A stretch of DNA of 64,000 nucleotides from Solibacillus silvestris (GTDB taxonomy: Bacteria; Bacillota; Bacilli; Bacillales_A; Planococcaceae): positions 594,001 to 658,000 of the forward strand of contig CP014609.1 of NCBI GenBank assembly GCA_001586195.1, in the 5' to 3' direction. Numbering within the stretch: the stretch's first letter is position 1; the number at the start of each line of letters is the position of its first letter. This document shows positions 12,612-17,990 of this stretch, one piece after another. The notes below the pieces were generated by a model, which ran no database searches, had not been told where the DNA came from, and saw nothing but the letters and a program-made list of their open reading frames with translations. A program made the translations under genes and the position numbers.

Positions 12612-14279
12612 TTATACTTCCATAATGATCGGTAAAATCATTGGACGACGTTTCGTTTTTTCGTATAAATATGGGCCTAATACATCGGTAATTTCATTTT
12701 TCAAATCATTCCATTGTGTATCTTTTTCCTGAATCGTGCTGTTTAAATGATGGTTCAGCATTTTTTGCGCTTCATTAATCATCATGCCCGATTCACGCAT
12801 ATACACAAAGCCGCGAGAAATAATATCCGGACCAGAAACAATTTTGTTTTTAGCCATATCGACACTTACGACAACGATGACTAACCCTTCTTCTGATAGA
12901 ATTCGACGATCGCGTAATACGATATTACCGATATCCCCGATTCCATTACCATCGATATATACATCGCCTGAAGGAATCCGTCCTGCAACATGTGCTTCAT
13001 TTGCACTTAATGCAAGAACATCCCCATTTTCCATAACGAATGAGTTTTCCAATGGAACTTCACAAGCCTCAGCTAATTCAGTGTGAATTTTCAACATGCG
13101 ATATTCACCATGAATCGGCATAAAGAATTTCGGTTTCATTAAACGAAGCATGAGCTTTTGTTCTTGTTGAGAACCGTGGCCTGATGTATGAATATTGTTT
13201 AACGCACCGTGGATAACTTCTGCACCAGCACGGAATAATAAGTTGATAATTTTGTTTACGCTCATCGTGTTACCAGGAACCGGAGAAGATGAGAAGACAA
13301 CCGTATCACCAGGCTGGATTTGAATTTGACGGTGTGTACCGTTAGCAATACGTGATAAAGCAGCCATTGGTTCACCTTGAGAACCAGTACATAAAATCAT
13401 CACTTCATTTGCAGGTAAGCGGTTTAAGCTTTGAATATCGACAAATGTTTCTTTAGGAGCTGTAATATAGCCTAATTCACGGCCGATTGTAATCGCATTA
13501 TCCATTGATCGACCAAACACAGCAACTTTACGGCCATATTTTACAGCTGCATCTGTTGCCTGTTGTAAACGGTGGATATTGGAAGCGAATGTTGCAAATA
13601 TAATACGTCCATCAACTTTACGGAAGATTTCGTCAATGCTTTTCCCAACTGTACGCTCAGACATTGTGAAATCAGGTTTTTCGGCGTTTGTACTATCCGA
13701 TAGTAAACAAAGAACGCCATCGCGGCCGATTTCCGCCATTTTCGTCAAGTTAGCAGGCTCGCCTACTGGAGTAAAGTCAAACTTAAAGTCACCAGTATGC
13801 ACAATATTACCCGGTGGTGTCTTGATGACAATACCATATGCATCTGGAATACTATGTGTTGTACGGAAGAAGCTAACAGCTGTTTTACGGAATTTAATGA
13901 CATCATTCTCTTTAAATTCAATCAGTTTTGTTGTACGTAATAAGCCATGCTCTTCTAATTTGTTGCGAAGTAGACCTAGTGCAAGTTTCCCTCCATATAC
14001 AGGAATGTTAACTTGACGTAATAAATAAGGAATACCACCGATATGATCTTCGTGACCATGTGTTATAAATAAGCCTTTGATTTTGTCTACGTTTCGAACT
14101 AAATACGTATAGTCTGGAATTACATAGTCAATGCCAAGCAAATCGTCTTCAGGGAACTTAATACCTGCATCTATTAGTATGATTTCATCTTGGAATTGTA
14201 CTGCATATGTGTTTTTGCCGATTTCGCCCAGTCCGCCGAGTGCGAATACAGCCGCTTGATCATTCTTAACGAATTTCAT
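12612..14279 (-). CDS. rnjA: Ribonuclease J1
   Basis: A 555-aa metallo-beta-lactamase/beta-CASP nuclease. The zinc motif HGHEDHIGG is near residue 74, with further ligands in [10 protein letters not shown] and VHTGDFKFD. The beta-CASP motifs and the C-terminal domain follow, and the length is the usual one. It is the 5'-3' exonuclease and endonuclease that drives mRNA decay in Firmicutes. It starts five bases after the rpoY stop, with GGAG inside the end of rpoY, forming the rpoY-rnjA operon known from B. subtilis ykzG-ykqC. Confidence 0.96.
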
Positions 14280-14284
14280 AACTG

Positions 14285-14494
14285 TTAAGCGTTCTCCAGA
14301 CGGAAATTCGGGCTATTTTGTTCATATTCTAAATAGTTGCCTTCTAGAAGTTGAACAAGTTCAATATTGTAGTTACGGTCTTTTAAATAGTGACGTACTT
14401 CACGTTCAGATGACGCCTCTAAATAAAGTGTTTTTGTGTTTTCGCGAACTGGAATCTCAGAAATGTTTTCTTGATAATAGACTTTGTAAATCAT
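14285..14494 (-). CDS. rpoY: RNA polymerase epsilon subunit
   Basis: A 69-aa protein beginning [19 protein letters not shown], which matches RpoY (YkzG, epsilon), the small auxiliary subunit that binds near the polymerase jaw. ATG 14494 has an AAAGGAG Shine-Dalgarno. It is first in a two-gene operon with rnjA, linking transcription and RNA decay factors. Confidence 0.93.
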
Positions 14495-14634
14495 AGTTAC
14501 TCTCCTTTAAGTACGAACATTATTACTGCACTTCTAACTTGTAGAAAAATGCATTTCCTTTATATTATCACGGGACTCCTTTAAAATAAAGAAAAGCCAT
14601 TCAAATTTCGTCAACATCAACGTGTTCACGAATC

Positions 14635-14669
14635 AAAAAAATGGCACGTCCTATAATCGGGCGTGCCAT
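14635..14669 (-). terminator. Terminator of the small cationic peptide gene
   Basis: ATGGCACGTCC (14641-14651) pairs with GGGCGTGCCAT (14659-14669) over 11 bp with one wobble. On the minus strand it is followed by six T (14640-14635). It lies 14 bp after the stop codon at 14683-14685. Confidence 0.85.
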
Positions 14670-14682
14670 TGTAAATGAAGTG

Positions 14683-14754
14683 TTAGGCAATTAATTTTTT
14701 TCCGAGGATGCCATTTAATCGTTTCCGCCATTTCTTTTTGAGACGCTTTAACAT
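14683..14754 (-). CDS. Predicted 23-aa cationic peptide, unrecognised
   Basis: The reading frame encodes 23 residues starting MLKRLKKKWRKRLNG and ending ILGKKLIA. Ten residues are Lys or Arg, none is acidic, and hydrophobic residues recur so that a helix could be amphipathic. The support is its setting: a TTTACA-17 bp-TATAAT promoter, a GAGGAG Shine-Dalgarno nine bases before ATG 14754, and an 11-bp terminator hairpin with six T just after the stop. The whole unit is about 170 bp. I do not recognise the product. It could be a small regulatory or membrane-acting peptide, a ribosome- or RNA-binding peptide, or the coding part of a dual-function sRNA. Confidence 0.6.
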   Translation of the reverse strand: MLKRLKKKWRKRLNGILGKKLIA

Positions 14755-14775
14755 AGGTCATCACTCCTCACACTC

Positions 14776-14804
14776 ATTATACTAAATATTCAGATTTTTG
14801 TAAA
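14776..14804 (-). promoter_or_regulatory. Sigma-A promoter of the small peptide gene
   Basis: On the minus strand the -35 TTTACA (14804-14799) and the -10 TATAAT (14781-14776) are separated by exactly 17 bp. The predicted start gives a leader of only about 15-20 nt carrying the Shine-Dalgarno. Confidence 0.8.
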
Positions 14805-14833
14805 GGGCTATAAAATAAAAGGAGTGTTATAAA

Positions 14834-15604
14834 TTGAAGAAAATATTATTTTTTGATGTAGACGGCACACTATACAATTCAGATAAAAAATTACCTGCTT
14901 CAGCAAAGGATGCTATATTTAAAGCACGAGAAAATGGTCACGAAATTGCGATTGCAACTGGACGAGCACCATTTATGATAAAAGATATAATGGAAGAACT
15001 GCAAATCGATACATATGTGACATTTAACGGGCAATATGTCGTTTATAAAGGTGAAGTCGTTTATACAGATCAAATCGACAATGAAACTTTAACGGAAATC
15101 CTGGAATTTGGTGCACAGCGAAATCATCCGTTAGTTTTCCTGAATGAAAAGGAAATGATCGCTAGTGAAAGCGATTATGAAAGTGTGGAAAGCAGTTTAG
15201 CAACACTTCAATATCCATATCCGCAAATTGATCCGCAATACTATTTGCATACACCGGTGTATCAAACGCTTGTATTTATAGAAGAAAAAGAGCAGCCGAT
15301 TTATGAACAGCAATTCCCTCAAGTCCAATTTATCCGTTGGCATCCTTTCTCATGCGATGTGCTGCCAGACGGTGGTTCAAAGGCAAACGGCATTCGAAAA
15401 TTGCTGGAACATATTGATGTACCGGTAGAGGATGTTATTACATTTGGCGATGGATTAAATGATATTGAGATGCTTTCAGAGTTTGGCTATAGTGTTGCAA
15501 TGGAAAATGGGCATGAGCGAGCGAAGGAAGTAGCTTCAATGATTACAGGACATGTGGATAATGACGGTTTAGCTGACGCAATGAAGAAGTTGAAATTGAT
15601 ATAG
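14834..15604 (+). CDS. ykrA: HAD-superfamily Cof-type phosphatase YkrA
   Basis: A 256-aa HAD phosphatase. Motif I is FFDVDGTLYNS (residues 5-15, nucleophile DxD), motif II Thr lies in IATGRAPF, and motif IV is ITFGDGLNDIEML with the acidic residues; the large C2B cap lies between. Cof-type members dephosphorylate sugar phosphates and cofactors; the natural substrate is unknown. TTG 14834 is nine bases after AAGGAG. The position between rnjA/rpoY and def matches ykrA in B. subtilis. Confidence 0.88.
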   Translation: MKKILFFDVDGTLYNSDKKLPASAKDAIFKARENGHEIAIATGRAPFMIKDIMEELQIDTYVTFNGQYVVYKGEVVYTDQIDNETLTEILEFGAQRNHPLVFLNEKEMIASESDYESVESSLATLQYPYPQIDPQYYLHTPVYQTLVFIEEKEQPIYEQQFPQVQFIRWHPFSCDVLPDGGSKANGIRKLLEHIDVPVEDVITFGDGLNDIEMLSEFGYSVAMENGHERAKEVASMITGHVDNDGLADAMKKLKLI

Positions 15605-15613
15605 GCAGGTTGA

Positions 15614-15650
15614 AAAGCGTTGTGAGAAGATTTTTTCGCAGCGTTTTTTT
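15614..15650 (+). terminator. Terminator after ykrA
   Basis: The hairpin arms CGTTGTGAG and TTTCGCAGCG pair with several G-U pairs and are followed by seven T. Confidence 0.65.
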
Positions 15651-15673
15651 GTTTTGAAAGATGGACGTGATTT

Positions 15674-15853
15674 TATTAGAACAATGTGAATGCTTATTGG
15701 AAAATCGGAAGCAGACATTAGAAAATAGAGAAAGGATTTTAAAATATGTAGCAGCCGTTTTAGCACAATTGGCAAGTATATTAGAAAATTTTAATTTTAT
15801 TAGACGGTTAAAAGGATATTAGAACAGTTGCAATTTTATTAGAACTTTTAAAA
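15674..15853. repeat. Degenerate tandem array of TATTAGAA-type units, 19-21 bp period
   Basis: Units beginning near TATTAGAAC, TATTGGAAA, CATTAGAAA, TTTTAAAAT, TTTTAGCAC, TATTAGAAA, TATTAGACG, TATTAGAAC and TATTAGAAC start at about 15674, 15695, 15716, 15737, 15758, 15779, 15798, 15817 and 15837. The first five intervals are exactly 21 bp and the last three are 19-20 bp, close to two helical turns. The array fills most of the 330-bp gap between ykrA and def. No ORF with a ribosome-binding site is seen in it. Confidence 0.6.
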
Positions 15854-15883
15854 GCTATGGCTACTTTCTTCTATAGTAACAGG

Positions 15884-15925
15884 TCAAAAAAAGACCCCAT
15901 TTTCGCTACTAACGTAAACGGGATC
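15884..15925 (-). terminator. Terminator of def
   Basis: On the minus strand GATCCCGTTTACG pairs with CGAAAATGGGGTC with a few wobbles, followed by seven T. It starts about 10 bp after the def stop. Confidence 0.75.
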
Positions 15926-15933
15926 TGCAGAAG

Positions 15934-16491
15934 TCAGTCTCTTCCGAATGGAATACTGTTTTCCAATTGGACAAACGGGTCTTTTTCATCGATACGATCG
16001 TAAAACATAACTCCGTTTAAATGATCTAATTCGTGCTGGAATGCGATTGCAGGAAGACCAGATAAACGCATTTTCTTTTCTTCTCCGTCCACTGTCATAA
16101 ATTTCACAGTGATACGTGCATAGCGATAGACATAACCGGGAATGGCGCGGTCTACAGATAAGCAGCCCTCACCACTTGTTATATAAGTCTGTTCAACGGA
16201 ATGGCTTACAATTTTAGGGTTAACCGCCACAAAGCTGATCAGTTCACCATTTTCATCTTCCAAATGCAATGCAAACATGCGTTTTAAACTGTTTACCTGG
16301 TTTGCAGCTAAGCCGATGCCGCCGCGTAAATTATATTTTTCAGCAATTTCAGGATTTTGGCTATTAATTAAATATTGCAGCATATCATCTGCGAGCTTTC
16401 GATCTTCTGCTGATAACGGAAAAGTTACTTCCTCCGCGCGGGTGCGTAAAGTAGGGTGTCCTTCACGGATAATATGTTCCATTAAAATCAT
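15934..16491 (-). CDS. def: Peptide deformylase
   Basis: A 185-aa metalloenzyme that removes the N-formyl group from new proteins. All three family motifs are present: GIGLAANQV (motif I, near residue 58), EGCLSV (motif II with the metal Cys) and QHELDHLNG (motif III with two metal His and the catalytic Glu). Length and the insertion between motifs I and II fit the Gram-positive type 2 class. ATG 16491 has AAAGGAAG six bases upstream. It is divergent from pdhA, as defB is in B. subtilis. Confidence 0.95.
   Translation of the reverse strand: MILMEHIIREGHPTLRTRAEEVTFPLSAEDRKLADDMLQYLINSQNPEIAEKYNLRGGIGLAANQVNSLKRMFALHLEDENGELISFVAVNPKIVSHSVEQTYITSGEGCLSVDRAIPGYVYRYARITVKFMTVDGEEKKMRLSGLPAIAFQHELDHLNGVMFYDRIDEKDPFVQLENSIPFGRD

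Positions 16492-17990
<1,499 letters not shown>

Follow-up and report, generated by a model that had tools for sequence, protein, structure and literature searches.

A conserved 23-codon gene upstream of rpoY-rnjA, predicted to encode a basic amphipathic helix

A 23-codon gene was located upstream of rpoY-rnjA in the window, a 64,000-nucleotide stretch of Solibacillus silvestris DNA to which all coordinates below refer, and was recovered at the same place in nearly all sampled genomes of the Planococcaceae, the family of the window, and in further Bacillales. Its reading frame is under selection at the protein level. With a probability of roughly 0.6, it represents a genuine small-protein gene whose product, a basic amphipathic helix, acts in trans on a partner that most likely belongs to the machinery of RNA synthesis or decay. 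A protein of 23 residues is kept at one place across many Bacillales, next to the genes for a small subunit of RNA polymerase and for an RNase that is quasi-essential. The gene offers an easy knock-out target for the coupling of RNA synthesis and decay, and it illustrates how length cut-offs in annotation can conceal conserved genes.

All parts of a short transcription unit described in the initial annotation (promoter, Shine-Dalgarno sequence, ORF and hairpin) were present on the minus strand of the window at the positions claimed. The -35 hexamer TTTACA (14799..14804, read as 14804-14799) is followed, after a 17-nt spacer, by the -10 hexamer TATAAT (14776..14781). The Shine-Dalgarno sequence GAGGAG (14764..14769) is contained in (A/G)AGGAGTGAT, a motif present in most family loci, and is separated by nine bases from the ATG at 14754. 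The ORF of 23 codons plus TAA stop (14683..14754) encodes MLKRLKKKWRKRLNGILGKKLIA, a peptide of 23 residues with ten Lys/Arg and no Asp/Glu. An intrinsic-terminator-like hairpin with T run (14635..14670) completes the unit. The promoter scored 11/12, the highest of 17 promoter-like sites within 13000-16500, compared with a mean of 11.8 sites of the listed kind in shuffles. The hairpin had been described as 11 bp with six T; its presence was confirmed, but the arms (14670-14640) consist of nine pairs, a one-base mismatch and two further pairs, and two of the seven T are paired, leaving five unpaired. Probably because of this mismatch, the hairpin was absent from the first terminator scan, and it was found using a script that allowed one mismatch. 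Folding of the 134-nt RNA yielded -33.5 kcal/mol (z -2.52), with 1 of 200 shuffles equally good. That such an arrangement would be unlikely by chance was borne out by its recurrence at the same place across the family: a promoter scoring at least 9/12 was present at the peptide gene in 43/43 loci (counted without a shuffled control), and a terminator-like hairpin in 40/43 loci versus 43/1290 shuffles (39/43 loci versus 72/860 shuffles with other settings). The unit in the window is more than chance.

Relatives were collected first within the family. In a search of 61 genomes, full-length matches of 23 codons with 100-57% identity were obtained in 36 of 37 family genomes, the exception being G023; the single match in another family (G043, E 0.13) was supported by its genomic place. 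When 250 family genomes were searched with a profile, 241 of them, from 18 of 19 genera, matched at E<=1e-5, each once, and the window's own genome contained a single match to the peptide at E<=10. ORF length was 23 codons in all 43 family loci. Among the nine genomes missed by the profile, G476 (L212) carries an ORF with an in-frame two-codon insertion, and rpoY was not found in G542 (90% complete, 640 contigs). No ORF was present in G023 and G423 (L210, L211), where a deformylase-like sequence lies next upstream (by eye), in G433 (L217), where the promoter is also gone (by eye), and in G424, G434, G450 and G457 (L213-L216), which kept promoter and terminator.

Selection on the reading frame was quantified by pooled pairwise counts, which are not tree-based. 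For the peptide ORF, pN/pS was 0.29 within the genus and 0.30 within the family (rpoY: 0.16 and 0.26), compared with 1.53 and 0.67 in the genus and 0.99 and 1.10 in the family for the shifted frames. Pooled dN/dS amounted to 0.25 (genus) and 0.15 (family), higher than the 0.12 and 0.11 of rpoY, and constraint on the peptide is therefore somewhat weaker than on rpoY. Entropies at the three codon positions were 0.58, 0.41 and 1.16. A23 and K20 are conserved while their codons differ, and stop codons vary too. Purifying selection acts on the protein frame, i.e. the ORF is protein-coding. The check proposed in the initial annotation, a search of relatives with attention to third codon positions, recovered the ORF across the family with most variation at position 3. 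The suggestion of a real small protein was upheld by selection on the protein, by an unchanging length, by the changes at third positions and by synteny.

Beyond the family, 398 genomes of the class were searched with the profile. A match at E<=0.1 was obtained in 87, of which 76 were accepted. Of these, 67 matched at E<=4.1e-8; the other nine, at 1e-4 to 0.033, have tails that are longer or of another kind. The 11 matches dropped were partial and away from rpoY by coordinates, one of those genomes being without rpoY. All accepted genomes fall within the 175 class genomes having rpoY, and in 37/37 accepted genomes from outside the family the match adjoins rpoY; for the 39 accepted family genomes, the place of rpoY was listed for comparison in 37 (exceptions G328 and G397). 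The remaining 99 rpoY-bearing genomes had no accepted profile match, one of them (G324) having a diverged copy (L113). Matches beside a nusA-like gene, noted by eye in two genomes (L128, L129), were judged to be due to chance.

Named loci were taken as the best 80 of 275 stretches encoding relatives of B. subtilis RpoY. Within 800 bases upstream, a PSSM score >0 was reached in 73 of these best 80, the top score on the opposite strand being -2.3. Loci without such a score were L151, L197, L203, L204, L205, L207 and L208, so that by PSSM no like ORF was detected in the named Aerococcus (L207) and Enterococcus (L208) loci. Bearers included B. spizizenii, B. velezensis, Geobacillus, Anoxybacillus, Robertmurraya, two Metabacillus and Pseudalkalibacillus; the B. 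subtilis group was represented by close relatives of B. subtilis 168, such as L130-L135. The peptides of the 73 loci are mostly 23-27 residues long. In six of them (L142-L144, L181, L182, L190) the first residue is Leu or Ile, implying a start codon other than ATG or a misplaced start, and in L198 a Met follows one residue later. Outside the family, the ORF has 23 codons in 28/33 loci and 30-45 in the other five. A subfamily (L064, L068, L069, L070, L120, L121) with an (I/V)-P-T-T tail after the helix was observed, its members totalling 30-45 residues. In 21 loci from other lineages, a K/R-rich filter applied to the DNA ahead of rpoY (10 and 11 loci; 700 and 400 nt) detected no like ORF.

The initial annotation had placed the gene between rpoY-rnjA and ykrA, and both neighbours were confirmed in the window. 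Downstream lie rpoY, encoding the epsilon subunit of RNA polymerase (14285..14494, minus strand; PF07288), and rnjA, encoding RNase J1 (12612..14279, minus strand; RNase J domains); upstream and divergent lies a gene for a ykrA-like HAD hydrolase (14834..15604, plus strand). The latter is not always beside the peptide gene, and ykrA was not found in the DNA retrieved for several loci, e.g. L023, L027, L030, L045, L066 and L073. In 76/76 loci (43 family, 33 other), the ORF stop is succeeded on the same strand by the pair rpoY-rnjA at a distance of 19-563 nt. Matches away from rpoY, namely L034 (second match in G035), L039 (G048) and L067 (G139), were left out of the counts and are possible paralogues.

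The signals around the ORF were also compared outside the family, where a promoter of at least 9/12 was present in 16/33 loci and a terminator-like hairpin in 21/33 loci versus 30/990 shuffles (alternative settings: 18/33 loci versus 38/660 shuffles). Between the hairpin and rpoY, a probable own promoter of rpoY-rnjA was located at 14562..14590 on the minus strand (TTTATT-17-TAATAT, with TGA ahead of the -10). A region GGCTTTTCTTTATTTTAA-N10-TGATAATATAAAGGAAATG ahead of rpoY (14557-14598, minus strand) is similar across the family (L001-L037 without L034, and L073-L079). In many members the T run of the peptide-gene terminator coincides with the 5′ part of this region, so that this terminator and the rpoY promoter seem to overlap; the window's genus retains the 5′ part, though its own terminator sits further upstream.

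An ORF directly upstream of rpoY-rnjA in all 76 loci might also serve as a leader in cis. Read-through of the hairpin into rpoY-rnjA would then be set by translation of this ORF, or by a ribosome that pauses at its end, and the levels of RNase J1 and epsilon would follow translation or the peptide. In 39/43 family loci the hairpin begins 0-17 nt past the stop, where a terminating ribosome could cover its 5′ arm; in L064 and L068 (the latter with a TTG start) 19 and 21 nt separate the end of the ORF from rpoY, and no terminator could be found; and the clade L213-L216 retains promoter and terminator without the ORF. The distance from stop to hairpin, however, varies from 0 to 17 nt in the family and from 1 to 38 nt elsewhere, so the spacing to the terminator that would mark an attenuator leader peptide acting in cis is not kept, and terminator-like hairpins were not found in 3/43 family and 12/33 other loci. 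Stop codon and codon choice vary as well. Past the hairpin, the -10 motif of the rpoY promoter is present in 43/43 family loci, as scored with a pattern written only after inspecting the family sequences, and protein conservation over the whole length exceeds the need of a simple Lys/Arg-sensing leader. A leader role is accordingly considered unlikely, if the best-surviving of the alternatives. A short ORF upstream of a gene is likewise found in rbfL of S. aureus, a regulatory uORF/leader peptide according to the available part of PMC13009471; compared with that case, the peptide gene differs in being followed by a terminator-like hairpin and a second promoter motif and in the conservation of the whole protein.

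Composition and helix statistics were calculated for 68 distinct 23-mers, 15 of them taken from the named loci, with longer forms left out. Positions 2, 5, 9, 13, 16, 17 and 22 are hydrophobic, and positions 3, 4, 6, 19 and 20 basic, in 98-100% of the 68; A23 is kept in 67, and net charge ranges from +6 to +10. The mean helical moment at 100 degrees was 0.625 versus 0.301 for shuffles, exceeding the member's own 95th percentile in only 45/68, and the window peptide (0.506) lies below this mean. For a 32-residue relative (L069, 14-row alignment), AlphaFold2 returned a helix over residues 2-21 with a mean pLDDT of 71 and a pTM of 0.31; pLDDT was 88 for the first ten residues and 77 for the next ten. 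On these grounds, the product is predicted to be a cationic amphipathic helix.

In the preferred reading, the promoter, which is of the sigma-A type, would direct synthesis of a short mRNA (~130 nt) ending at the hairpin before the rpoY-rnjA promoter, and translation would yield a strongly basic amphipathic helix of 23 residues that acts in trans, as a protein. Its hydrophobic stripe (2, 5, 9, 13, 16, 17) and the conserved C-terminal K-x-I-A could form the docking surface for a partner, and the basic face may contact something anionic. The partner would most likely come from the machinery encoded next door, i.e. RNA polymerase with epsilon, RNase J1, or their RNA. This is the best guess because the gene stays next to rpoY-rnjA even in loci for which ykrA was not found, because it lies, in rare cases (L064 and L068), so close to rpoY, and because the helix is basic. 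A tie to transcription or RNA decay, raised as conceivable in the initial annotation, is thereby made probable, location being what points to the partner. For RNase J1, a 5′ exonuclease, a reported role in clearing stalled transcription complexes is mentioned in PMC8152036 and in the title of a reference cited by PMC8266666. More speculatively, and with a low probability, the peptide might be an ancient third member of an rpoY-rnjA module, its helix bridging RNA polymerase (epsilon side) and RNase J1 and helping to clear such complexes. By analogy, the closest precedent for the peptide gene is SR1P, whose gene lies at another locus. As described in the accessible part of PMC8152036, SR1P is a 39-residue protein of the B. 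subtilis sRNA SR1 that raises RNase J1 activity through GapA; it shares with the present peptide the small size of a Bacillales protein, a short transcript and an identical genomic location among homologues, but differs in its 39 residues and its origin from a 205-nt base-pairing sRNA. In the same part of that source, SR7P is a small protein with an RNA-decay partner, modulating enolase with RNase Y; it differs in being encoded by an antisense RNA. Both proteins are likened to the peptide by description, not by sequence.

The same helix could alternatively be membrane-active, as the initial annotation had also proposed, binding to the inner leaflet of the membrane and recruiting or modulating a membrane process there. 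SpoVM and the C-terminal helix of MinD are short amphipathic membrane anchors, and the high mean moment, seven near-invariant hydrophobic positions and positive charge suit membrane binding equally well. So high a charge, however, also fits RNA or acidic proteins, and a last residue that hardly varies, together with the constant length within the family, suggests a specific fit. The peptide gene differs from these anchors in its fixed C-terminus and its location, which points to RNA metabolism. Membrane binding as the main role is judged distinctly improbable.

The initial annotation had also raised a dual-function sRNA, and had named loss of the ORF with promoter and hairpin kept as the pattern speaking against a protein. 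This pattern was seen in one clade of four genomes: in genus g10, 4/8 genomes (L213-L216) group together with support 1.0 (FastTree, 1250 bases of rpoY-rnjA), and in these the ORF was lost while promoter, a short RNA (~80 nt) with a hairpin, and terminator were kept. The hairpin replacing the ORF is AUUAGC/GCUAAU in three of them and shorter in L213. As promoter and terminator outlive the ORF, the unit may have a further role besides the peptide, either through its RNA or in cis on the transcription of rpoY-rnjA; alternatively, the ORF-less unit is a relic. Since the ORF is missing in this clade and in three more family genomes (L210, L211, L217), the peptide gene is dispensable, and perhaps replaceable. 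A dual-function or purely regulatory sRNA with a secondary ORF would agree with the short promoter-terminator unit, with a weak consensus RNA structure in the genus (13 distinct sequences, z -2.27), calculated for the ORF together with 20 nt of leader, and with fewer synonymous differences there than in rpoY (pS 0.25 versus 0.36). Neither the 40 distinct family sequences nor the 27 from other families, however, yielded a consensus structure over the same region, and synonymous variation in the family is almost equal to that of rpoY (pS 0.64 versus 0.68). No Rfam match was found in the window at gathering thresholds, nor in 12 loci at E<=0.1. Such an sRNA is very unlikely as the main explanation. 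A chance ORF or artefact, to which 23 codons being short might point, is ruled out for practical purposes by the family-wide matches, the selection on the frame and the synteny.

Of 34 members searched, none matched NCBIfam at E<=1, and two one-member matches to Pfam (E 0.1 and 0.26) were judged to be chance. Solved structures gave no match at E<=10 and phage sequences none at E<=1. A type I toxin or mobile gene was thought unlikely because of the single match per genome and the fixed locus, together with the lack of a phage match. Among the matches listed for the main text of open-licence full texts, no publication naming the gene was found; given this scope, annotation of the gene, e.g. in B. 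subtilis 168, may exist. Gene names and sequence strings led to nothing on the locus; coverage by term extended to PMC2784878, PMC5521070, PMC4634765, PMC8208703, PMC2965389, PMC13009471, PMC11780869, PMC8216469 and PMC8266666. The conserved 23-residue gene seems to be undescribed even near the best-studied Gram-positive model.

In some lineages without the peptide, long rpoY leaders with recurring motifs were noted by eye (L086, L091, L127; L092, L096, L097; L110, L111). These leaders, of which those of L086, L092 and L111 gave no Rfam match, are possibly unrecorded cis-regulatory RNAs of rpoY-rnjA. The motif AGAC(A/G)AG(A/G)CTTTCTCTT recurs in the leaders of L086, L091 and L127, and CCCTAG...CTAGGGTTTT is present in that of L111.
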